Below are positions 6,360-20,822 of a stretch of 64,000 nucleotides of DNA, one piece after another. The translations under genes were made by a program, and so were the position numbers. The notes beneath the pieces were generated by a model. It saw nothing but the letters and a program-made list of their open reading frames with translations. It was not told the origin of the DNA and did no database searches. The stretch covers positions 186,001 through 250,000 of the forward strand of contig JALHOL010000004.1 of assembly GCA_022843025.1 (NCBI GenBank), given 5' to 3'. Positions within the stretch are counted from its first letter, which is position 1; each line of letters starts with the position of its first letter. The stretch comes from Paracoccaceae bacterium (lineage in GTDB: Bacteria; Pseudomonadota; Alphaproteobacteria; Rhodobacterales; Rhodobacteraceae).

Positions 6360-6401
6360 GGGGGCGGACCCTAACGCAGGGGACCGCCGCTGCAAGGGTG
6401 A

Positions 6402-7058
6402 TCAGGGCATGCGCAGCGCCGTGACGTTCGTGGCGGAAACGGAGATGCCGCCCCGCAGGATCAGGGTGATCTGGTCGCCGTCGCGGCGAGCCTCTTCAAT
6501 GCGGGCATAGGATTGGACGGGATCAGTGCGGATCACTTTATCCCCCTGCCGACTTTCCAGCCGTAATTGATAGCGACCGGCGGGAAGCACCGTCCCCGCG
6601 GCATCGGCACCCAACCATGAATAGCTGCGGCTGCCCATTGGCACGGTTTCGCGCGAGACGAGTTTGCCGGTGGAATCCGTGACTGTGAGAACAAGGTTAT
6701 CCGCTGTTGGGGCAGGGTTCGGGGTCAGAGTGATGGGGCGGCCCTCAAACCAGACATCGGCAGGGGTCCGCGCCTCTTGCCCGATCCAACCGGAAAGTTG
6801 CGCCATGCCCATCAGGCTGAACTGTGCGGCGAGGTCGTTTAAAAGCTTGTTGGTTTGCACCTGCTGTTCGACGCCAGAAAAGGTGGCCAGCTGAACCGCG
6901 AAATCCGTGGAGTTGAGAGGGTTCAGGGGATCCTGATTCTGCATCTGGGTGGTGAGCATTTTCAGGAACGTCGTGAAATCCGCCCCAGGCGAGGCCGCGG
7001 TTGTGGAGGGCGTGCGGGCAGTCGTGTTGGGCGCTGAGGAAGTGGGTGGTGTATTCAT
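6402..7058 (-). CDS. flgD: Flagellar hook assembly scaffold FlgD
   Basis: The 218-residue protein has the conserved FlgD N-terminal block FLKMLTTQMQNQDPLNPL followed by STDFAVQLATFSGVEQQV. After it comes a beta-rich domain with PAGRYQLRLE. FlgD caps the growing hook and is removed on completion. The start at 7058 follows AAAGGA by a few bases, 10 bases after the stop of fliK, so the two are co-transcribed. It looks intact, in contrast to flgE and fliC nearby. Confidence 0.92.
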   Translation of the reverse strand: MNTPPTSSAPNTTARTPSTTAASPGADFTTFLKMLTTQMQNQDPLNPLNSTDFAVQLATFSGVEQQVQTNKLLNDLAAQFSLMGMAQLSGWIGQEARTPADVWFEGRPITLTPNPAPTADNLVLTVTDSTGKLVSRETVPMGSRSYSWLGADAAGTVLPAGRYQLRLESRQGDKVIRTDPVQSYARIEEARRDGDQITLILRGGISVSATNVTALRMP

Positions 7059-7068
7059 GGCAATCCTT

Positions 7069-9135
7069 TCAGAGCCGAAGGTCGAGTGTGCCGGGCGATG
7101 CGTTTGGGCGAGGGGGTGGGGGGCGTTGATCTGCAGCGGGCGGTGGGCTGGACGGGCTCGCGGCAGCCGGCGACGGAGCGCTGTGCTGTGACGGGGCATC
7201 CTGCGCATTGCCGCCTGCAAAGCTGAGCGACGCGCCGGCAAAGCCGGCCTGCCGCAGGTCAGCCAGTACCTGATCCCCCTGCCGTCGGAGAAGATCGAGC
7301 GTTTGGGGTTCATCGACCGCAAGGTGGATGTGCAGGCCCTGATCCGTTTGCTTTACCTCAAACCGCAGGGTGCCCAGTTCATCCGGGCGCAAAGTCAGGG
7401 TGACAGGGCCATCCGGGGCGATCTGGACCAGACGCAGAATTTCTTCTGTCAGCGGCATCGGGCTGATCGGGGGGCGGGACGGAGTGGCGGAATCGGGGGC
7501 GTGTGGACGGGGAAGCTCTGCCGGGATTGGGGCGAAGGGGGAAGCGTCGCCGACCAACGGCTGTGGATAAACGTAGATTTCTGCAATGTTCGTGACGAAA
7601 AGCGGGTTTCCCGCCATGGCCGTGCCAGAGACCGAGCCGATGTCGATGGCGGCAGGCAAGGCCTGTGGCGCAAAGGACCCGGCCGTTGAGTCGGTATTTG
7701 GAGTGAACATCCTTGATGGTGGGGCGGGGCCAGACAGCGGACCTGGTGCAGGAGCCCCAAACGACCGTTCCAGCGCAGGAGAGGATGGCATAGCGGCCGT
7801 TTCGGCCCAGATTCTCGCGGTACGGAAAGCGGGTTCTGGTGTCGTTGCGGGTTCGGTGCCGGATTGGACATGGGCAAATGGGGATACTTCGCTGGCAGGC
7901 GAAGGCAACGCGACCGCTGGGATTGGGGCGGCGAATTGCGTCGCATTTGGATCGCGTGGCGGTTCGGATTGCGCTGATGCCTGCGGGAATGGCAGGGACA
8001 AAACCTGCCCGCGCAACGGGGAAAGGTCGTGATCGGCTTGCATCGCTGATGATGGCACCGCTGCGGCCGGTTGAGGCCGGCGGACAGATTCGTTTGGCAG
8101 TAAGGCTGCATCTTCCATATTCGTGCTTTCCCGAGTCCTTGGCGGGAGAAGCGGGTCCAATCCCGAAACGGGGATGGGCAAGGCAGGGGTTCTGGCTGCG
8201 GCGGGCGGTGCGGGGGATTGATCGGGACTGGGGATGATTTGTGCCTTGTCAGAGACGTTTTCCACCTGACGCTTGCCAGCTTCCTGCAACAGATCCGCAT
8301 GAGAGAATCCCGGCCATGGAACCCTGGCGGGCGCAGCGGAGACCGCAGCGGCCGCGACTTCAGATTCGGCAAGGGGTGGCCGGAAAGCCAAACTTGAACG
8401 CGGTTCCGCCCTATCCCCCATACTGCTGAGATGTGCGCCAGTGCCCTGTGGATGGGGCATCGCGCTGCGCGCGGGCACCCCATCGGCATTGGCGCGGGGA
8501 AGCGGGGAAGCCCCGACCATTGTGTCCAAGGATTGAGGTCCAAAAGGCTCTGTTACGGCGGAAACTGGTATTCTTTTGCCTTGCGGAACCGTGGGCCGCT
8601 CTTGCTGGGTGGGAACCGTGCTCCCCATGGCAGGGGTTTCCGGGTGAGAAGGATCATCCCTTCCGGTTGAAGGCGGCATTTGCGCGGGCATGACCGGCTG
8701 CGATGCGGCGGAGAGATCGGCAAAGGCCATCGCAGCCATGCTGAAAACCTGCGGCGGCTGTGCCGGATCGGGCGATTTCGGCGATGTCAGGCTCGATTCG
8801 GATCTTTGCGATGCTTTGTCTTCTGCAGTCGGCTGTGGGCTGGCAGTGTCAGCGTCGCTTGGCTGTGGACGGGCTTCGATGGCCATTGTGCCAGTTGGCA
8901 GAGATGCCGCAACGGGTGCATCAGGCGACGGCTGAGTCGCGTTCTGGTGGGGGATCAGGGGATCCGTGTCCATCGGTTCGCGATCGGGCATCTGATCCAA
9001 ATCTGCGGCGAGCCTCTGCGGATTGGCACCGGATTCGGCCATCACAGCGAGGAAGGCAGTGACTTCCGCGCCCACTGCGGTGCCGGGAGCCGCAGGCGTG
9101 GAAGGCAATTGCTGGAGACGAACAGGCTGGATCAT
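7069..9135 (-). CDS. fliK: Flagellar hook-length control protein, FliK-like
   Basis: This 688-residue protein is mostly low-complexity, Pro/Ala/Ser/Gln-rich sequence, as expected of a molecular ruler. It ends in a compact domain (LRPDELGTLRFEV, then LLRRQGDQVLADLRQAGF) that matches the Flg_hook domain. FliK measures hook length and switches the export apparatus to late substrates. It precedes flgD on the same strand. The first 500 residues are too variable for confident homology; the call rests on the C-terminal domain and the context. Confidence 0.85.
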   Translation of the reverse strand: MIQPVRLQQLPSTPAAPGTAVGAEVTAFLAVMAESGANPQRLAADLDQMPDREPMDTDPLIPHQNATQPSPDAPVAASLPTGTMAIEARPQPSDADTASPQPTAEDKASQRSESSLTSPKSPDPAQPPQVFSMAAMAFADLSAASQPVMPAQMPPSTGRDDPSHPETPAMGSTVPTQQERPTVPQGKRIPVSAVTEPFGPQSLDTMVGASPLPRANADGVPARSAMPHPQGTGAHLSSMGDRAEPRSSLAFRPPLAESEVAAAAVSAAPARVPWPGFSHADLLQEAGKRQVENVSDKAQIIPSPDQSPAPPAAARTPALPIPVSGLDPLLPPRTRESTNMEDAALLPNESVRRPQPAAAVPSSAMQADHDLSPLRGQVLSLPFPQASAQSEPPRDPNATQFAAPIPAVALPSPASEVSPFAHVQSGTEPATTPEPAFRTARIWAETAAMPSSPALERSFGAPAPGPLSGPAPPSRMFTPNTDSTAGSFAPQALPAAIDIGSVSGTAMAGNPLFVTNIAEIYVYPQPLVGDASPFAPIPAELPRPHAPDSATPSRPPISPMPLTEEILRLVQIAPDGPVTLTLRPDELGTLRFEVKQTDQGLHIHLAVDEPQTLDLLRRQGDQVLADLRQAGFAGASLSFAGGNAQDAPSQHSAPSPAAASPSSPPPAADQRPPPPRPNASPGTLDLRL

Positions 9136-9252
9136 GTTGGGTCAGACTTCTGTCAGGTGGTCCGACTTTGTCCTTCACCGATTACCAAATCTTTACTGCC
9201 GATGGCCCAAGATGCGGAAAATCTGCCCCATTTCCCAAACAGGAGCACCGCG

Positions 9253-9519
9253 ATGCAGGTATCCCCGCCACTAACGAGACCGGGCACAGCGCCCGACAAC
9301 CCCTTGCGGGCCAAGGCAGCCGAATTGGAAACCGCCTTTCTGGCAGAAATGCTGCGACATGCGGGGCTTGGCACGCAAACGGGCAGCTTTGGCGGGGGGA
9401 TCGGGGCCGAGCAGTTCGCATCCTTCCTGCGCGAAGGGCAGGCAAAGGCGATGGTGCAGGCGGGAGGCATCGGGTTGACCGAATCGCTGTTCCGCGCGCT
9501 GGAGGAGACTGCGAAATGA
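9253..9519 (+). CDS. Rod-binding protein, FlgJ N-terminal domain type
   Basis: The 88-residue protein contains LETAFLAEMLRHAGLG and EQFASFLREGQAKAM, followed by GIGLTESLFRAL. This is the FlgJ N-terminal (rod-binding) fold without the muramidase domain, as is usual in alphaproteobacteria, where it is sometimes named CheL. It probably helps polymerise the flagellar rod. The start at 9253 has AGGAG seven bases upstream and is preferred to the ATG at 9202. It is divergent from fliK, and its stop overlaps the next start (ATGA). Confidence 0.82.
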   Translation: MQVSPPLTRPGTAPDNPLRAKAAELETAFLAEMLRHAGLGTQTGSFGGGIGAEQFASFLREGQAKAMVQAGGIGLTESLFRALEETAK

Positions 9520-9839
9520 ACGATGCAGAGGCGGAGGCGGAGGCGGTTCTGAGCGCAATACACCATGCGATTCGCACGGCACAGTTCGATGAGTTAGAGA
9601 CAATTTCAGCCAAGTTAGAGACCGTTTTATCTGGCTTGGGGGCCTTGGAAGGCGATGCGCTGGCACGGCTGCGCGGCATGGCAGAGCGCAACACCAATTG
9701 TCTTGCGGCGGCGGCTCAAGGATTGCGCGCGGGTCGGCGGCGGCTGGTTGAGATTGCGGCGGCAGAACGGGCCGATACCTATGACCGCAGCGGTGCGCGC
9801 AGGGCCCTATCGACGCCGGTGTCCGGGCGGAGGCTATGA
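9516..9839 (+). CDS. Small flagellar protein, probably a FlgN-like export chaperone
   Basis: The 107-residue, mostly helical product begins MNDAEAEAEAVLSAIHHAI and has a leucine-rich middle (LETISAKLETVLSGLGAL) and an Arg/Ala-rich end. Size, helical character and translational coupling (ATGA overlap) to the FlgJ-type gene suggest the FlgN chaperone for hook-filament junction proteins. No motif is decisive, so this remains a position-based guess. Confidence 0.5.
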   Translation: MNDAEAEAEAVLSAIHHAIRTAQFDELETISAKLETVLSGLGALEGDALARLRGMAERNTNCLAAAAQGLRAGRRRLVEIAAAERADTYDRSGARRALSTPVSGRRL

Positions 9840-10013
9840 TTTGACTCAATTCCAAACCATTTCCCCCGGCCGCATCAGCAAAGGCTTAACCGCTGCGGGG
9901 TGAAATGGACGGGCATCCCGAAGCGGGGTGGCGCGGTGGTCCGTGACCGCACGCATCGGGGGGAACCCGAAAGGTCAATCCGCGCCAAAGGCGCACTTTC
10001 AAAGGGAATGAAG

Positions 10014-10178
10014 ATGTCATCCATTCTGACCAACAACGGCGCCATGGTTGCGCTGCAGACGATGAAAAGCATCAATATCAACCTCGGCATGACCCAATCC
10101 GAGATTTCGACCGGCAAGTCGGTCGCTTCGGCCAAGGACAACGCCACCGTCTGGATGACCTTGGCGTTTGATGCATAG
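10014..10178 (+). pseudogene. fliC: Truncated flagellin gene (5' end only)
   Basis: From the ATG at 10014 the frame reads MSSILTNNGAMVALQTMKS, then ININLGMTQSEISTG and KSVASAKDNATVW. This is the unmistakable flagellin D0/D1 N-terminus. After VW (codon ending 10154) it switches to MTLAFDA and stops at 10178. Flagellins of this type are 270 or more residues long, so over 80% is missing. The downstream DNA is the antisense strand of flgE. AAAGGG lies seven bases before the start, so the truncated gene may still be expressed as a 54-residue peptide. Confidence 0.9.
10146..10154. other. Deletion junction between fliC and flgE with 9-bp microhomology
   Basis: ACCGTCTGG at this position can be read as the last genuine fliC codons (Thr-Val-Trp) on the plus strand. 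On the minus strand it reads as the last genuine flgE codons (CAG ACG GT in VIQTV). Both genes would be expected to carry this 9-mer in the same orientation. That is the arrangement required for a microhomology-mediated deletion of everything between them. Confidence 0.7.
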
Positions 10179-11491
10179 GCGCGCTGCGTCTGGATCATCG
10201 CGGTGAGTTCGCCGGCAACATCGGTGGTCGATCCTTCGCGGGTATAGCCAGAAATGGAACCTGTCGGTCCGGTCCCGGCGTCCCACAGGGTGAATGCGCC
10301 TGATTGCGGTGTGATCTGGTAGGTCTGATCCGCCAGCGCAGCGAGGCCATTGATATTGGGCACATCGATCAGCGGAATCTGAAAGAGGCGCTGCGAAAAG
10401 CCGGTGTCATAGCTTGCTGTCAGGTAGCCGTCTTTATCGACTTCGATCTTGGTCAGGCTGCCGATCGGCGAGCCGTCCTTCACAACCCCGACAGGGGCAA
10501 AACTGCTGTCGAGTTGCGTCAGCCCGTTGGATGCACCGGGGGAACCAATCGTAAGGGTGATCGGGCCCCCTGCAGCGTTGATGGAAATGGTGCCCTGGGC
10601 CGGATCATAGGCACCGCCGGACACGGCCGTCACGGTTGCGATCGAGCCACCCGGGCCGCGCGAAGCATCGAATGTGACGGTGTATTCCCCAACCACAGCA
10701 CCACCCGAGGCGGAATCGCGGATCTGCATGGTCCAGGTGTTTGAGGCCGCGCCGGTTGTCGGCACCGTGGGGGTGAAGCTGATCTGAAGCGTTTCCGACG
10801 TGCCAAGATTGCCGAAGTATTCGACAGAAAGCGGCAAGCTGTTGCCGTTTGCGCCAACAGTTGTGCCCTTGGCCGGGAGGTTGACCCCCAGACGGATCGA
10901 CGTGGTCGGATCGCCGACGCGCTGATTGGTGTCGATCCGGATGGGCACCAAGCCAAGTTCAGAATCGCGGGGAAAGCCGGGAATGGTGCCATCCCGATTG
11001 GCGGGCCAGCCCAACAGGCGCATCCCGCCGTCCGTGGAGAGAAAGCCCTGCGCATCCACACGGAAAGAACCGGTGCGCGCCAGTTGCATCGTTTGATCAT
11101 CGGGCGCGCCGCCAAGGCCCGTGGAGGGCCGCACTGGAAGCATCCCCCGCCCGGACACCGCCAAGTCGAGCGCGTTGGAGGTGGCCACCAGCGGGCCGGC
11201 ATCATCAATCAACCGGCTTGCATTGGCGCGGACGCCGCCAGCGGTGAAACCGGCCGTCCCCACACCGCCCGTCACCATCAGGCTGTCAAAATCCGTGGTG
11301 GCACGGCGATAGCCGAAGGTGTTCGAGTTGGCGATGTTATCGGCAATGGTGGCAAGCCGGGTCGCATTGGCGTTGAGCCCAGCGACGCCGGCGTTGAGCG
11401 AAGACGTGATCGACATGAATAGCCTTTCTGCAGCCTGAACCTGAGTCGGCTGTCATCCTGGCCCATGTGGGGTTAACACCCGCCTAATGGT

Positions 11492-12358
11492 TCAAAAGCC
11501 ACCGATTGCCGATTGTCGGCGCAGCAAGGTCACTTCAACACGGTTGTTGCGGAGGTTGGTCGGATCAGCCGTGGCTGGGCGACGACTGGCAAAGCCCGTG
11601 ATCCGGTGCATGCGTGCCTCATCAAGCCCGGCTTCGCCCAAGAGCCCGCGCAGAGTTTGGGCGCGGGCGGCGGACAGGTCCCATGTCGGATCAGTGCGCA
11701 GGATGATCGGATAGGCCCGAACATGGCCGGAAATGGCGATCTTGTTGGTGGCCAGCGCGGTGACCTCTACCAGCATCGCAGCCAGATCCCGAAGGATCGG
11801 GCGCGCGTCAGCGGTTTCGGGATCGAACAGGGTTTCCTCTGGCGTGTCGAAAAGTTCAATCACCAGTCCTTCATCCGAAAGGCGGGTGACAACATGCCGA
11901 AGCAACCTGTCAGAGACCATGCTTTCGCCGGTATAGGCCGAAAGCTGGCTTTCCACTTCGCGCAAAACCGCCTCTTCCGCGGCGACTTCTTCGGGTGTCG
12001 GTCCACCTTCGGCCTGAGAGCGGGTGGTCTGTATCAGGTCGGTTGCCGAAGCGCCGACGCCGTTTCGCGCCAGCGTTTCTTCGGTCAGAATGGAATCGCC
12101 GCCAAAGACGCCATCCCCGCCCCCCGAAACACGATTGACCGGGATCGTGGGGCTGAAGAAATCAGCAATCCCTTTGCGCTGCTTTTCCGTTGTCGCGTTC
12201 AGCAGCCACATCAAAAGAAAGAAGGCCATCATCGCGGTCACGAAGTCGGCATAGGCCACCTTCCATGCGCCGCCGTGGTGGCCACCGCCACTTACGACCT
12301 TTTTCCGTTTGATGACGACTGGCGCGGCATTCCCTTGCCTGGCCATTCCACCACCCAT
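11492..12358 (-). CDS. motB: Flagellar motor stator protein MotB
   Basis: A protein of about 288 residues with one transmembrane helix near the N-terminus (VAYADFVTAMMAFFLLMWLL). It contains the essential proton-binding Asp38, then the plug, then an OmpA-like peptidoglycan-binding domain (VIELFDTPEETLF ... ISGHVRAYP ... LSAARAQTLRGLL ... NNRVEVTLL). It couples proton flow to rotation with MotA, which is not in this window. Starts at 12358 and 12346 are both possible; the first has GGGTG ahead of it. It lies upstream of flgE on the same strand and looks intact. Confidence 0.9.
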   Translation of the reverse strand: MGGGMARQGNAAPVVIKRKKVVSGGGHHGGAWKVAYADFVTAMMAFFLLMWLLNATTEKQRKGIADFFSPTIPVNRVSGGGDGVFGGDSILTEETLARNGVGASATDLIQTTRSQAEGGPTPEEVAAEEAVLREVESQLSAYTGESMVSDRLLRHVVTRLSDEGLVIELFDTPEETLFDPETADARPILRDLAAMLVEVTALATNKIAISGHVRAYPIILRTDPTWDLSAARAQTLRGLLGEAGLDEARMHRITGFASRRPATADPTNLRNNRVEVTLLRRQSAIGGF

Positions 12359-12403
12359 TCTTACACCCGACCTGCAAGCTAAAGGAGGATGGTGAAGCAA
12401 GGA

Positions 12404-13324
12404 CTAAAGGATTGGATTGTCGGGAAATCCGGCAAGGCCGCGCAAAAGCGGGCGCGTGGACAGGCCGATGGCGGCATAATCGGCGCAGAACTGGCGCAGA
12501 ACGGCATGTGTCAGCCCATGATCAAGCAGCAAAGGATTGGCGGGGGAGATCACTTCGAATCTGGCGCGCGGCTGCCCGGTGCGGGCGGCAAGGAAATCGG
12601 CCAGATCCTTGGTCACCCAGCCTGTGACATTGGTCAGGTAAAGATCGAACCGCTGAAAGCTCCGGTCAAGCGGGATCAACCCAAGGTACGGGAGCCGCGA
12701 CATGACGTGGTCGCGCATCGCGGGCCCCAGTCCGGCCGCACAGGCCCCGGTCAGCCGGTCGGCACGCGCACCGATTACACGCAGAACATCGGTCAGCCGG
12801 TCATGTTCACCGGGTGTAAGGGAGCGGGTGGAAAACAGATCAGACAGCGCACCGTCGCGATCTGCGCGCACCAGGATGAGGCCGCGGATCGGGGCGATGC
12901 GTTCCCGTGCGGCGCGTGCCTGTTGCGGGCTGAGGTCTTGCAGGATCAAACCACCGGGTTGTGCGAGGGCCTGCGCGATATCGGCAGGATCGCGCGACAA
13001 GGCCGCGGCAAGGTGCGCCGACACGCGGGCCGGATCGGCCCAGACCGAAAGCTGAACCGACAAGTCGCACTGCGCGGCTTTGTCATCATTGCTGCGCAGA
13101 CGAAGTTGCAGGCCGAGCACCGACAACACCGAAAACAGGCGCTGCGCCGCTTGCGGACCCAGACCCCGCGCAATGGGACCCGGGCTGGTAGAAAGCCGAC
13201 GGAAGGCCAGGCTTTCTGTGATGCCCAGATGGCCGGCCAGCACTGGGGCAGCCAGTGCCGCAACCCCCGTGGGCGCGGCGAGATACAGCGTGAAGCTGGC
13301 CGATCCAGTGCTGGTGCTGTGCAT
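12404..13324 (-). CDS. Uncharacterised protein of the flagellar cluster with L7/L12-like modules
   Basis: The 306-residue product is not recognised as a named family. Residues about 11-75 (LYLAAPTGVAALAAPVLAGH, LGITESLAFRRLSTSP, IARGLGPQAAQRLFSVLSVL, GLQLRLRS) follow the pattern of the ribosomal L7/L12 C-terminal domain: short strand, helix, A-x-x-L-x-x-x-P, glycine, A-x-x-L helix, final strand. A second, more divergent module seems to follow (about 85-150), with DPADIAQALAQPG and DLSPQQARAARERI. It precedes motB on the same strand by 45 bases, suggesting a flagellar role. No signal peptide or membrane helix is visible. Confidence 0.6.
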   Translation of the reverse strand: MHSTSTGSASFTLYLAAPTGVAALAAPVLAGHLGITESLAFRRLSTSPGPIARGLGPQAAQRLFSVLSVLGLQLRLRSNDDKAAQCDLSVQLSVWADPARVSAHLAAALSRDPADIAQALAQPGGLILQDLSPQQARAARERIAPIRGLILVRADRDGALSDLFSTRSLTPGEHDRLTDVLRVIGARADRLTGACAAGLGPAMRDHVMSRLPYLGLIPLDRSFQRFDLYLTNVTGWVTKDLADFLAARTGQPRARFEVISPANPLLLDHGLTHAVLRQFCADYAAIGLSTRPLLRGLAGFPDNPIL

Positions 13325-14533: not shown

Positions 14534-15835
14534 TCAGATGAAGCGGTTCCAGAGGTTTTCCAGCCGTTCCTGACGGCCGGATTTCGGTTCGGGGTTCAAT
14601 CCGTTGGCCGTGACCACCGCTGCGGCATCCTCAAGTGACCCGGTCAGCAGGGCCTTTGCATCGGCCCGTTCCCACCCGGCGTAGCGGTCGGCGCGGGCCT
14701 TTTCCAGCGCCCCATCCGACAGCAACGCGGCGGCGGATTTGAGCGCGCGGGCGCAGGTATCCATGCCACCGACATGGGCGAGGATGAGGTCTTCGGGATC
14801 AAGCGACTGGCGGCGGATCTTGGCGTCGAAGTTCGTGCCGCCAGTAGTATAGCCGCCAGCGCGCAGGATTTCGTAGAAGGCCAGCGCCTTTTCCGCATGG
14901 TTGTTCGGGAACTGGTCAGTGTCCCAGCCAGACTGGTAATCGTTCCGGTTCATGTCGATGGAACCGAAGATACCCAGTGCTGCGGCGGTGGCAATCTCAT
15001 GTTCGAAACTATGGCCCGCGAGGATGGCGTGACCCTGTTCGATGTTCACCTTCACCTCATGCTCAAGCCCGAACTGAACGAGGAAGCCGTAGACCGTGGC
15101 CACGTCGTAATCATACTGATGCTTGGATGGTTCCTGGGGTTTCGGCTCGATCAGGATCGCGCCCTTGAAGCCGATCTTGTGCTTGTATTCCACGACCTGT
15201 TGCAGGAAGCGGCCAGCATGTTCGCGTTCGGCCTTCAGGTCTGTGTTCAGCAACGTCTCATAGCCTTCGCGCCCGCCCCAGAGGACGTAGTTCGCGCCGC
15301 CCAGTTTGTGCGTGGCGTCCATGTTGGCCTTCACGGTGGCGGCGGCATAGGCATAGACATCGGGATCGGGGTTCGTGGCAGCGCCCGACATCCAGCGGCG
15401 GTGGCTGAACATGTTGGCGGTACCCCAGAGGAGCTGGGTCTTGTGGGAAGACTGCTTCTCCCCCAGGTAATCGACGATTTCATCCAGATTGCGCTTTGAC
15501 TCGGCGAAGGTGGCGCCTTCGGGGCGGACGTCGGCATCGTGGAAGCAATAGAAGGGCGCGCCGAGGATATCGAACATCTCGAACGCCACATCGGCCTTGA
15601 GCTTGGCCAGCGCCATGGTGTCACCGAACCAGGGGCGATCAAAGGTCTGACCACCAAAGGGGTCGCCGCCCGGCCATGCAAAGCTGTGCCAATAGGCGAT
15701 GGCAAAGCGCATATGCTCTTCCATCCGCTTGCCCAGAAGAATTTCATCCGGGTTGTAATGCTGGAAGGCAAATTCGTTAGTGCTGGAAGGCCCCTCATAC
15801 TTGATTTGGGGGATGCCTTTGAAGAAGTCGGTCAT
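14534..15835 (-). CDS. xylA: Xylose isomerase
   Basis: The 433-residue enzyme interconverts D-xylose and D-xylulose using two divalent metals. It shows the catalytic His segment [10 protein letters not shown], the substrate loop [14 protein letters not shown], the metal ligands in [16 protein letters not shown] and the conserved HSFEHE. Length is typical of class II enzymes. Its ATG overlaps the xylB stop (ATGA at 15835-15832), so it is translationally coupled. It is the fifth gene of the xylF-H-G-B-A operon. Confidence 0.96.
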
Positions 15836-17268
15836 GTCAGTCCTCGGATGGCGGATTGCGCGGCGCGATAGCGGGCATGGCCCGCGTCGAAAGCGGCGGT
15901 CAGGCTGCGGTCAGGGTCGATGCTGCGCGCGATGGGGGGAAGGGTGGCAATCTCTGCCCCTGCCCCGGTGGCGGCCATGAGGCCAAGGCGCGCTGCGCCA
16001 AAAGCCCCGCCGAAATCACCCGCGACGGGCAAGTGAACGGGGATGTCCAGCGCGGTGGCGATGGCACGAAGCCAATAGTCAGAGCGCGAGCCACCGCCGA
16101 CAGCAAGGAGCCGGTCGATCCGCGTGCCCGTGGCGGCCAGCGCGTCGCGGCTGTCGCGGATGGCGAAGGTTACGCCTTCCAGCACGGCGCGGGTGGCGGC
16201 GGTGCGGTCAGTCGCATGTTCAAGACCGATGAAGGCACCCCGGATGGCGGCATCGTTCAGCGGCGTGCGTTCGCCACCAAGATAGGGCAGGAACAATGTC
16301 TTGGTGGGCGCGTGCAGATCGGTCAGCGCGCCAGTCAGATTGGCGGCAGTTTCGCCCACCAGTCCCGCATACCAGTTCAGCGCGTCGGTGGCGGCAAGGA
16401 TCACGCCCATCTGGTGCCACGTATTGGGCAGCGCGTGGCAGAAGGTATGCACGGCGGTTTCCGGTGCGGGCTGATACCCGTCATTCGCAGCAAACAGCAC
16501 GCCCGAAGTGCCAAGCGAAACAAAGGCATCGCCCGCCTTCACCACGCCGACGCCCACACCAGAGGCGGCATTGTCGCCACCCCCACCCGCGATGACCACG
16601 CCCTTCGGCAAGCCCCAGCGCGACGACAGGGCAGCGCGAAGGCTGCCCGAAACCGCGGACCCTTCGACAAGGCGGGGCATGTTGGCACGGGTCAGGCCAG
16701 TAGCGGCGAGGCAATCATCCGACCAATCTCGCTTGCCGGTATCCAGCCAGCTTGTCCCTGCGGCATCGGACATTTCGGCGACATGTTCACCGGTCAGCCA
16801 CAGGCGCAGGTAATCTTTGGGCAGCAGGACGCGCGCCACCCTTTCCCAGATGCGGGGTTCATGACGGCGCACCCAAAGCAATTTCGGCGCGGTGAAGCCA
16901 GGAAAGACGATGTTGCCGGTCACGCGCCGGAACATCGGATCATCGTCAAGCTCGGCCGCCTCCTCATGGCTGCGGGTATCGTTCCACAGGATGCAGGCAC
17001 GCAGCACCTCATCCGAGGCATCCAGCAGCGTAGCCCCGTGCATCTGGCCCGAAAGGCCTATGGCGCGGACCTTGGACAGACCATGTGCCGACAGCGCATC
17101 CATCACGCTTTCCGCGGCGGCGATCCAGGCGGCAGGGGATTGTTCCGACCAGCCTTCATGCGGGCGGGCGACGGTGAGGGGGGCGCTGGCCTCGGCCAGC
17201 ACCGCCTGCGCATCGTCGATCAGCACGCCCTTGAGGCCGGACGTGCCGAGGTCGAGGCCGATATACAT
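15832..17268 (-). CDS. xylB: Xylulokinase
   Basis: The 478-residue FGGY-family kinase phosphorylates D-xylulose to feed the pentose phosphate pathway. The N-terminus [19 protein letters not shown] is the phosphate-binding loop, and IGLSGQMHG is the family signature containing the substrate region. The C-terminal half contains the catalytic [10 protein letters not shown] and the ATP-site segment [11 protein letters not shown]. The start overlaps the xylG stop by one base (TAATG). Length is normal. Confidence 0.95.
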
Positions 17269-18029
17269 TACGCAGCCTTTGCCGGTTTCTTGCCAAGGAT
17301 GATCATCGACAGGATGTCTTCGTCGGTCACTTCATCGACATTGACCGTTCCGACAAGCTGACCGTTCTTCATCACGGAGGCCCGATCGCACAGCTTCATC
17401 ACGTTGTGGATGTCATGTTCGATCAGGAAAATGCCCAGACCCTGCGCCTTAAGCTCTTGGATCAATTCCGACACCATCTGCGTCTCATGCGGCCCAAGCG
17501 CGGCAGTGGGTTCGTCCATGATCAGGATCTTGGCGTTGAAATACACGGCACGCGCGATGGCGACCGACTGGCGTTGACCACCCGACAGCGCGCTGACCGG
17601 GACGCCGAACTTGCGGAAGTTCGGGTTCAGGCGACCCATGATCTTGCGCGTTTCGGCCTCCATCGCGGATTCGTTCACGAACCCCATGGAGTTCACCAAT
17701 TCGCGGCCAAGGAACAGGTTCGAGGCGGCATCAAGGTTATCTGCCAGGGCGAGCGTCTGATAGATCGTCTCGATGTTCTGGGCGCGGGCGTCGCGGGGAT
17801 TGTTGATCTCCACCTCTTGCCCGTTGATCAGGATCTGGCCCGCATCGGCCTTGTAGGCCCCGGACAGGCATTTGATCAGCGTCGATTTGCCCGCGCCGTT
17901 GTGGCCCAAAAGGCCCACGACTTCGCCGGGGAAGAGGTCAACCGTGACGTGATCGACGGCCTTGATCCCACCGAACGAGATCGAGATGTCACGCAGTTCG
18001 ACGAGCGGGGTTCCGGTTCTGTCTACCAT
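17268..18029 (-). CDS. Sugar (xylose) ABC transporter ATP-binding protein, single-domain type
   Basis: The 253-residue ATPase has Walker [10 protein letters not shown], signature [14 protein letters not shown], Walker [13 protein letters not shown] and the H-loop His in IEHDIHNV. It powers the transporter formed with the adjacent permease and binding protein. The enterobacterial XylG, like RbsA and AraG, is a fused tandem of two ABC domains (about 510 residues). This one has a single domain, as in the Sinorhizobium FrcA type, and should act as a homodimer. It is 13 bases after the permease gene. Confidence 0.9.
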
Positions 18030-18042
18030 GATCTTGGCCCCT

Positions 18043-19434
18043 TCACTTGATGCGCTTGCGGTAAAGAATGTCGAGATAGACGGCGAGGACGAGCGCGATA
18101 CCGATCACGATGCGCTGGTACGACCCATCGCCAAAGCCGATCAGCACCATGCCGGTTTGCAGCGAGGTCAGGATCAGCGCGCCGATGATGGCGCCGTAGA
18201 TCGTGCCGACCCCCCCCGCCAGCGATGTGCCGCCGACAACGGCTGCAGCGATGACGTAAAGTTCGTCCAGGTTGCCCATGGCATTGGTGGCGCTGTTCTG
18301 ACGGGCCGCGCCGATGACGGCAGCGATCCCGGCAAGGCCGCCCATCAGGGTGAATATCTTCACCGTCATGGCGCGGGTGTTGATGCCCGACAGGGCCGCC
18401 GCTTCGGGGTTGCCGCCGATGGCAAAGACATAGCGACCAAAGCGGGTGCGGGTCATCAGGATGGTCATGAAGATGGCGACCGCGATCAGGATCAGCACCG
18501 GATAAGCAAAACCATGGCCAAAGGTGGCGCAGACATCGGTATAGATCGTGTCGTTGTCCTGTGCGCAGGCGGGAAGCTCCTGCCCCAGATCGGTGTAGTA
18601 TTTCGCGATGTTGCCGCGCGGCCAGATGTAGGAATTCACCATTGCCGTTGCGCCGATGATGACGGCGCAGATGAGGCCGATCACAAAGGTTTCGGCCCAG
18701 ACAGGGCGCAGGGCAAAGCCGTGCAGGCGGCGGGATTTGCGGCCGCTGATGAAGGCCCAGACGACAAAGACGCAGGCGATGACGCCAAAGATCCAGCTGC
18801 CGGTCCGGCCCAGCGCCCCGAAGGAGCCGCCGCCGATCAGCGCGAAGGTTTCATCCAGCGGCGCGATCGTCTTGCCACCGGCCACAAGGAAGGCCGCCCC
18901 GCGCCAGACAAGCAGGCCGCCCAGCGTAACGATGAAGGACGGAATGTTCATGAAGGCGATCAGCACACCCTGAAACGCCCCGATCAGCGCCCCCATGGCG
19001 ATGCCGAAGATCACGGTGATGATCCAGATCGACGGATGGCCAAGGCCCAGCGCCGGCGTCAGGTATTCAACCTGAAGCAGGCCCATATACATGCCAACCA
19101 TGCCCATGATCGAGCCGACCGACAGGTCGATGTTGCGCGTGATGATGACCAGCACCATCCCGGTAGCCATGATCCCGATATAGGACGTCTGGACGGACAG
19201 ATTCCACAGGTTGCGCGGCGTGAGGAAGCCGTTGGCTTCGGCCTGGCTTGCGCCCAGCAGCATCGACGGGCGGCCAAGGACAAGGGCCGAGTATGCTTCG
19301 AAAGCCACCCAGATCAGCAGCAGCGCCCCGACCATACCCAGAAGGCGCGGATCGATCTCTGTCGTACGCAGGAAACGGGCGACCGCACTTTCATTGGGTG
19401 GATGGGGAATCGGGGAATGGGGAGTGTCGGTCAT
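18043..19434 (-). CDS. xylH: Sugar (xylose) ABC transporter permease
   Basis: The 463-residue polytopic protein belongs to the ribose/xylose BPD_transp_2 family, with about ten or more hydrophobic segments. It has the conserved NIDLSVGS and [20 protein letters not shown]. Compared with the about 390-residue E. coli XylH it carries an extra periplasmic-looking loop (about 290-330) with two Cys ([18 protein letters not shown]). The start at 19434 ([11 protein letters not shown]) is chosen because the upstream in-frame sequence is unlike the family and rich in Arg. It imports pentose with the binding protein XylF. Confidence 0.9.
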
Positions 19435-19545
19435 GTCCTCGTCCAGCCTGAGAGGGAAATTCGGTTGCGTGGGCACTGCGCGCAGAAAAGCACGCCTCTG
19501 GATCACCCCAGCCCGGGGCAATCGGCCACCCGCCATGAAAGAAAA

Positions 19546-19574
19546 CCGGCGCCACCCTTGGCAGGTGGCGCCGG
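19546..19574 (-). terminator. Intercistronic hairpin between xylF and xylH
   Basis: CCGGCGCCACC (19546-19556) and GGTGGCGCCGG (19564-19574) form a perfect 11-bp stem, loop CTTGGCA. On the minus strand TTTTCTTTC follows directly. It has the form of an intrinsic terminator placed 15 bases after the xylF stop. It probably acts as a leaky terminator or RNA-stabilising structure that makes xylF mRNA more abundant than transporter mRNA. Confidence 0.78.
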
Positions 19575-19588
19575 AAGATCAGCCTAGA

Positions 19589-20614
19589 TCACTGGCAAGC
19601 AGCGACGCCTTCCATGGCGCCTTCGCAAGCCTGTTCCTTGGTGATGTGGCCCGCGTCGATCGCCAGGTTCAGCGTGTCCTTGGTGATCGGGGTCGGGTTC
19701 AGAAGGATTGCGTTCATTTCAACGCCCTTCTCGCCGCCCGAGAACTTGGTCGCGCCCGGGATGGCGTCCAGCGCCGTGCCGTCAGCCATGGCCGAGGCGA
19801 TTTCGCCAGCAGCTTTGCCGAGGTCACGTGCGTTCTTCCACACCGAAACGGTCTGGGTGCCACGTGCCACGCGGTTGATCGCGGCGAGGTCGCCGTCCTG
19901 ACCACCCAGCGGAACGTTCAGGCCCTGAGCTGCCAGAGCGGCAGCAGCACCACCGGCCATGCCGTCGTTCTGCGACAGAACGGCGTCAACGGCGTTGTTG
20001 TTGGCGGTGAGGATCTGTTCCATGTTCTTCTGGGCGTTCTCGGGCTTCCAGCCGTCCGAGTTCGCTTCGCCGACGATCACGATGTCGCCCGAAGCAACAG
20101 CGGCGCCGATCACTTCTTCCATGCCCTGACGCAGGAAGCCGACGTTCGGGTCACCCGGGTCGCCCTTGATGATCGCGTAGTTGCCCTTCGGGGCCACGGC
20201 GAAAACCGACTCGGCGATGATGCGGCCCACGCCGACGTTGTCGAACGTCAGGTAGAAGGTGCGTGCATCTTCGATCAGGCGGTCATAGCCGACGACCGGG
20301 ATACCTTCGGCAGCGGCCTTTTCGATGGCCGGAGCGATGGCGTCCTTGTCCCATGCGTTGATGATCAGCGCATCAACACCCTGCGCGATCAGCGCGTCGA
20401 TGTCGGACAGCTGCTTTTCGGCGGACGACTGGGCGTCGGCCGAGATGTATTCGTTGCCAGCGGCTTCGATGGCGGCCTTCATTGCGGCTTCGTCGATCTT
20501 CCAACGCTCTTCCTGGAACTGAGCCCAGGACACGCCGATCTTCTTGCCTTCTGCCAGAGCGGCAGACGAGAAACCTGTCACTGCCATGACGGCAGCGAGA
20601 ATTGCGATACGCAT
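19589..20614 (-). CDS. xylF: Periplasmic xylose-binding protein
   Basis: The 341-residue precursor has a clear Sec signal peptide (MRIAILAAVMAVTGFSSAALA) followed by a mature periplasmic-binding-protein fold (KKIGVSWAQFQEERWKID ... SQNDGMAGGAAAAL). It delivers xylose to the membrane permease. The ATG at 20614 is preceded by a strong GGAGG. It is the first gene of the operon, with the repressor gene divergent 224 bases away. Family resemblance is to XylF rather than RbsB because of the WAQFQEERW region and length. Confidence 0.92.
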   Translation of the reverse strand: MRIAILAAVMAVTGFSSAALAEGKKIGVSWAQFQEERWKIDEAAMKAAIEAAGNEYISADAQSSAEKQLSDIDALIAQGVDALIINAWDKDAIAPAIEKAAAEGIPVVGYDRLIEDARTFYLTFDNVGVGRIIAESVFAVAPKGNYAIIKGDPGDPNVGFLRQGMEEVIGAAVASGDIVIVGEANSDGWKPENAQKNMEQILTANNNAVDAVLSQNDGMAGGAAAALAAQGLNVPLGGQDGDLAAINRVARGTQTVSVWKNARDLGKAAGEIASAMADGTALDAIPGATKFSGGEKGVEMNAILLNPTPITKDTLNLAIDAGHITKEQACEGAMEGVAACQ

Positions 20615-20712
20615 TATTATCCTCCCTATGGATGCGGCCAGCGTATGGCCGGTACGACGGATTCGTCGGCACGCTGGAAAATAGGCGGGAATAATTTCAG
20701 TTGTCAAAATAA

Positions 20713-20727
20713 ATTTGATCGTCAAAT
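20713..20727. promoter_or_regulatory. Operator-like dyad upstream of xylF
   Basis: ATTTGA-TCG-TCAAAT is a perfect 6-3-6 inverted repeat about 100 bases ahead of the xylF start. It sits in an unusually AT-rich patch that could hold the promoter. It is the best candidate for a site bound by the divergent ROK regulator. Confidence 0.6.
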
Positions 20728-20822
20728 CTGACGCTGCCTAGGAAACTGGCGATTTCATGCGGCAGTGCAGCAATTATCGGGATGTCCGCAAAGAATATGG
20801 CAGGCATTCTGCCCGTTTTTAG

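Follow-up and report, generated by a model that had tools for sequence, protein, structure and literature searches.

Loss of flagella is common and is usually taken to reflect many unrelated accidents. The window examined here, a stretch of 64,000 nucleotides from a Paracoccaceae bacterium (contig JALHOL010000004.1; genome G000), carries a flagellin gene (fliC) joined head-to-head to a hook gene (flgE), which raises the question of how such a join arises and whether it is peculiar to this strain. Codons of fliC (10014-10145, plus strand) run straight into antisense flgE (11416-10146, minus strand), the plus strand reading MSSILTNNGAMVALQ...SAKDNA over 10014-10145 before flgE takes over. The hook gene starts at 11416 and retains 423 codons plus GT, to 10146, beyond which its frame continues in antisense fliC until 9875; its final 13 residues, VDEMLQETTNIKR in intact relatives, are missing. 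The locus and its flanks comprise the following features.

12404-13324, minus strand: conserved gene adjoining motB, open, with no Pfam family at E 0.01
11492-12346, minus strand: motB, open, flanking the deletion (Pfam MotB_plug and OmpA; tblastn matches in other deleted genomes of genus g1)
10146-11416, minus strand: flgE', hook gene remnant of 423 codons plus GT (Pfam Flg_bb_rod and Flg_bbr_C)
9875-10145, minus strand: read-through tail of flgE in antisense fliC, from the reading frame
10145/10146: join, with fliC to 10145 and flgE from 10146; position identical in 45 tabulated deleted genomes
10146-10178, plus strand: fliC' frame continued into antisense flgE (TVWMTLAFDA stop)
10014-10145, plus strand: fliC', codons 1-44 of the archetypal (fla1) flagellin gene, with intact orthologues in 11 of 18 matching genus genomes
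9519-9839, plus strand: small open gene immediately before fliC, in an FlgN-like position, with no Pfam family at E 0.01
9253-9519, plus strand: flgJ-type rod-binding protein, open, start approximate (Pfam Rod-binding)
7069-9135, minus strand: fliK, open and fast evolving (Pfam Flg_hook; dN/dS 0.5 between G000 and G061)
6402-7145, minus strand: flgD, open, start approximate (Pfam FlgD and FlgD_ig)

The head-to-head fusion proposed in the first-pass annotation is real, the sequence, the Pfam domains and the same join in genome G061 being in agreement; Flagellin_N is recognized at E 3.8e-6 in the 47-residue fragment at 10014-10154. The annotation had carried the flagellin through KDNATVW to 10154. 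Its intact fliC start stands, but the fliC part ends at 10145 (GCC), and because the first base of the following ACC codon, at 10146, belongs to flgE as judged from relatives, the longer reading takes in flgE bases. Functional fusion proteins were considered and rejected. The flgE read-through tail ranges from 15 to 162 residues across the 45 deleted genomes and, since its length is not conserved, is probably not functional; the fliC' tail has 10 residues in 39 of the 45 and other lengths in six. Such a pattern would follow if nothing but the conserved codons of flgE and fliC were retained.

Relatives of the window show the arrangement flgE> ... 25 kb ... <fliC, which points to deletion of most of a fla1-type Rhodobacterales cluster. 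Between the same flanks, intact genome G005 has flgE, flgK, flgL, flgI, fliP, fliF, motA, flhA, fliR, rod genes, fliI and fliC (ORFs named by eye), and the two points that are joined in the window lie 24.5-24.7 kb apart in intact G005, G008, G010 and G013 and 25.4 kb apart in intact G440. Taking the fla1 gene order from PMC12363192, motB-flgE on one side of the join and the genes from fliC to flgD on the other are colinear with intact relatives. Judged by these comparisons, the locus is a deletion scar from which about 24.5-25.4 kb, nearly the whole archetypal fla1 cluster (flgK to fliC), has gone, leaving flgE, motB, flgD, fliK, flgJ and the first 44 fliC codons. A functional fla1 cluster, with export gate, basal body and flagellin complete, is not present: fla1 FlhA is absent from both G000 and G061, and fliC and flgE are truncated. 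The intact loci thus bear out two earlier proposals, that fliC and flgE were brought together by a deletion with both in the same orientation and that the rest of fliC, the end of flgE, flgK, flgL, flgI and the intervening genes are missing here. Among the neighbouring genes, the 306-residue gene at 12404-13324 recurs in 11 of 12 loci from the genus, the exception being the G014 stretch. Farther out, ORFs at 14534-20731 resemble, by eye, a xylose isomerase, a xylulokinase and a sugar ABC transporter operon and are colinear with G005.

That the join is an assembly or sequencing artefact we regard as extremely improbable, and no support for it was found. The same join is present in G061, a one-contig genome of the same species as the window, and in the three-contig genome G002, and it occurs in isolates and MAGs alike; misassembly was rejected on the strength of G061 and of the genome-wide absence of fla1 FlhA. 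The latter protein (74-100% identity) was found in all 11 intact genomes of genus g1 and in none of the seven deleted ones, two of which, G006 and G017, gave no match to FlhA of any kind in the genus search.

Elsewhere in G000, contig C1 carries a second flagellar cluster (about 56886-103433), which we take to be probably a fla3/C. sphaeroides-like system. Searches of this cluster found flagellins/FlgL of its own, flgE-like genes and an FlhA that shares 37% identity with that of fla1; its flagellin has 490 residues and is of a different type. Genes resembling flgB/C, flgD, flgI, flgK, fliD, motA/B and others were named by eye. The second fliC or flgE for which the first-pass annotation had advised searching the genome thus turns up on C1, as a flagellin gene and flgE-like genes, and its statement that a cell with only this locus would lack hook and filament holds for the locus and not for the genome. 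Because the second cluster is present, cells of G000 may still swim and need not be non-motile.

The join is shared widely. A search with the fliC N-terminus matched 18 of the 19 genomes of g1, 11 with an intact and seven with a short fliC, and all seven short genes carry this join (G000, G061, G017, G014, G002, G003 and G006); apart from the ATVW of the window, with which its query closed, this search was not built on the join. All eight Limimaricola genomes were matched, two without a close fla1-type match and six with a fla1-type fliC, which is intact in G440 and short in the other five, each with this join. A further 35 genomes with a flgE motif and no intact-fliC hit were examined (from about 61 such genomes in which the family-wide join pattern had given no hit, counted by eye, and among the matches listed): 34 have an intact flgE end and one has this join, with no other truncation. 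Neither the Limimaricola search nor this one started from the join. An insertion-sequence hit-and-run was rejected, as no interrupted flgE end was seen among these 35.

Across the family, a degenerate join pattern with up to two mismatches matched 13 of 394 genomes. Twelve, in 11 genera, are true cases, a lower bound in that G431, an additional case found from the flgE side, was missed by the pattern; the thirteenth match, L074, is unrelated and was not counted. An exact scan of GTDB r220 contigs returned 37 loci, all with the join (nine labelled MAG and two more 'uncultured'), recorded as Limimaricola, Sulfitobacter, Pseudosulfitobacter, Loktanella, Marivivens, Salipiger, Roseivivax, Roseovarius, Shimia, Gemmobacter and others. 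Carriage of the junction by viruses was rejected, viral_contigs yielding no exact match. In all, 45 distinct deleted genomes were tabulated, with the join at the same position to the base, although this agreement is partly built in, since most were found with the join pattern. A chance event in one strain is not supported, the same base being joined in many lineages.

A FlgE tree with 38 rows from deleted and 26 from intact genomes was used to ask whether there was one event or many, and the two kinds of genome interleave on it. The tree implies 15 changes of state, at least 14 of them forced by well supported branches, where the count assumes that lost clusters never return, the tree is of FlgE and not of species, and its bootstrap had not settled. 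For the intact rows, 40 stretches were requested, of which 38 existed and 27 were dropped for having no flgE with a start; seven deleted rows with no recognized flgE start, the unrelated hit G230 and five duplicate rows were also omitted. The same fixed breakpoints have been used repeatedly, with several origins on this tree if losses are irreversible. Deleted rows also group together more than chance would give (15 changes, compared with a mean of 20.5 after shuffling and with three of 500 shuffles as low), which tells against full independence.

The reading that we favour, and to which we assign about even credence on the sequence comparisons, is that the losses recur by position-specific excision as a candidate process. 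Such losses would happen again and again, recently on an evolutionary scale, and at one fixed pair of places, flgE ..CAR ACN GT^NGAY.. and antisense fliC ..^NGC/NGA RTT RTC... The probable agent would be a putative site-specific recombinase or nuclease, able to act despite wobble variation in conserved coding DNA.

A different account, possible but on balance doubtful, is that a single ancient deletion allele has persisted beside the intact allele in many species, with homologous recombination refreshing its flanks up to the join. A small fragment, taken up by transformation or delivered by the gene transfer agents of about 4.5 kb known from this order, could carry the deletion but not the 25-kb block, so that replacement would be biased towards deletion. 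Transformation indeed removes islands much more easily than it adds them (PMC5850275), and RcGTA moves fragments of about 4.5 kb that undergo allelic replacement (PMC9690577). An old allele would account for both the base-exact join and its wobble variation without any enzyme, and it fits the clustering on the FlgE tree and the purifying selection on flgE between deleted genomes; a degenerate site combined with clustering is better explained in this way than by excision. The cost is a polymorphism maintained through the whole history of the family.

The sequences beside the join bear on both accounts. The clearest case for separate events is in Limimaricola, where deleted G439 has 96.0% identity to intact G440 on one side and 94.7% on the other, with alignments that end at the join; immediately beside it they differ at none of 60 positions on the flgE side and four of 60 on the fliC side, whereas the four other deleted Limimaricola differ at five of the last 30 flgE-side bases. 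Within the genus, when differences in the last 105 bases are scaled to overall distance, deleted pairs are no more alike than intact pairs, and the same holds family-wide for the last 35 bases save in the most distant FlgE class. There the differences are 4.55 for deleted, 5.53 for intact and 4.71 for mixed pairs, a slight closeness that favours an old allele but that mixed pairs show likewise; at other distances the lack of any excess likeness near the join counts against it. Flanks follow the species, and divergence profiles of nine pairs over several kilobases display no clear imported tract, the only donor-like feature around the join being a weak dip in G003/G013. Excision explains such species-following flanks better than an old allele does. 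Import of the junction from other species was also considered and left no clear sign in the genus and family pairs or in the nine profiled pairs. As to G003 and G013, the last 105 bases of flgE differ at two positions compared with 11% elsewhere, the lowest ratio among the 40 closest genus pairs listed; this unusual likeness may mark a recombination tract, of the kind that an old allele with refreshed flanks would leave.

The first-pass annotation had attributed the deletion to a 9-bp microhomology, and more generally the losses might be ordinary independent deletions at short direct repeats, repeatedly selected since non-motile cells do better in some settings. We consider this improbable. 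In those intact genomes that were studied closely, a short imperfect repeat (CCAGACNG.NG, whole or in part) does stand at each of the two places, except that G008 has CCACAC on the fliC side; the run shared in G013 is 8 bp. The crossover, however, does not fall within an unexpectedly long identical repeat. In intact fliC the residue that precedes Val/Ile/Leu/Phe-Trp is Ala or Ser at all 150 sites listed (220 of 394 genomes matched) and never Thr, and the 11 intact genus members likewise have Ala or Ser, the first base of ACC being unseen there. Joined genes have Thr at that codon in 45 of 45. Because Thr is never found among the intact fliC sites listed, the first base of its codon comes from flgE, which places the crossover beyond the identical run.

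The closest available comparison tells the same way. The intact sites of G440 are CCAGACCGTCGATG in flgE and CCAGACGGCGGAATTG in antisense fliC, and the product in G439 is CCAGACCGTCGAATTG; the two sites share six bases (CCAGAC), then mismatch, with the exchange further on, G440 being a close relative of the true parent of G439 and not the parent itself. This pair of sites is outside the eight best local matches in G440. Far longer repeats are abundant: in four intact regions, direct repeats more than 3 kb apart number 6,378-12,470 9-mer pairs and 179-433 12-mer pairs each. Given this abundance of longer repeats and the mere six bases shared in G440, short homology by itself probably did not determine where the deletion fell, and the microhomology proposal fails on the absence of Thr at the 150 listed and 11 genus sites, on the sharing of CCAGAC alone in the close pair and on the thousands of 9-mer pairs.

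Some observations count against position-specific excision. Among the ORFs of the 25 kb no recombinase is obvious, as judged by eye, and the joined flgE sequences vary (CCAAAC, TCAGAC and ACAGAC also occur), a point against a strict enzyme site. Nor is the shared core (CCAGACNGNNG) rare, since it occurs 10 times within 80 kb of one genome. Serine recombinases (PF00239) occur in 18 of the 19 genus genomes, with 1-12 matches in deleted and 0-5 in intact members (uncorrected p 0.044); the exception, intact G015, is a 91%-complete draft, and none was linked to the locus. This weak excess in deleted genomes is a lead at most. In cyanobacterial nif elements and the Bacillus skin element, a recombinase lies inside the element and the repeats are exact. 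What the fla1 scar has in common with these programmed excisions is that a block between two fixed positions goes missing precisely and repeatedly; it differs in that neither an obvious recombinase nor a notable exact repeat was seen. Degenerate sites have a precedent in Tn7, whose TnsD targets the coding end of glmS by recognizing conserved coding sequence with wobble tolerated; that process is a transposon insertion, however, and no element is seen here. The old-allele account has its own parallel in deletion-biased transformation (Apagyi et al., PMC5850275), where a short deletion allele can spread by homologous recombination and a long intact block cannot; that was shown for islands in pneumococcus, and no clear imported flanks are seen here.

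Sporadic loss of fla1 is already known: the cluster is absent from 7 of 50, 8 of 35 and 3 of 50 genomes of three clades, with independent losses inferred (Tomasch et al., 2025; PMC12363192). The same type of cluster, belonging to a vertically inherited system, is lost there in scattered genomes, and the passages of that paper on loss and remnants, supplements aside, describe no common breakpoint or fliC/flgE scar. A search of titles and the beginnings of abstracts likewise found no paper on a shared base-exact breakpoint, so that the common scar, as far as these sources extend, was not found in print. Losses across a major marine and soil bacterial family leave one scar, exact to the base, which would mean either a specific deletion machinery of which we found no description or one deletion allele kept and spread across the family. 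In its boldest form, which we think rather unlikely as a whole, the proposal would be that Rhodobacterales carry, or meet on mobile elements, a putative recombination activity that excises the fla1 block from about fliC codon 44 to flgE codon 423 and generates non-motile lineages on demand (for instance against phages that use flagella), so that motility would be lost across the family in a programmed, one-way fashion.

If excision does recur, deleted lineages would be dead ends, lost before the flgE remnant decays. Of 42 deleted genomes in which the remnant can be assessed, 40 have it open (L107 enters this count through G324, which is open and, having the same fliC' and contig number, was treated as one genome with it), and three further loci end too early to judge. 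Between G000 and G061, the single pair of same-species genomes in the data set and both deleted, flgE differs by 14 synonymous changes and one nonsynonymous change (dN/dS 0.025), and another deleted pair has 52 synonymous and three nonsynonymous changes. Intact pairs give a dN/dS of 0.05 to 0.15, with some pairs synonymously saturated, and deleted pairs reach 0.46 (Limimaricola), so selection on flgE is not equally strict everywhere. From these sequences, deleted lineages look young, or else their remnants look refreshed by recombination. The only broken flgE remnants among the assessable genomes are those of G310 (L070) and L095, which may be older scars or assembly errors.
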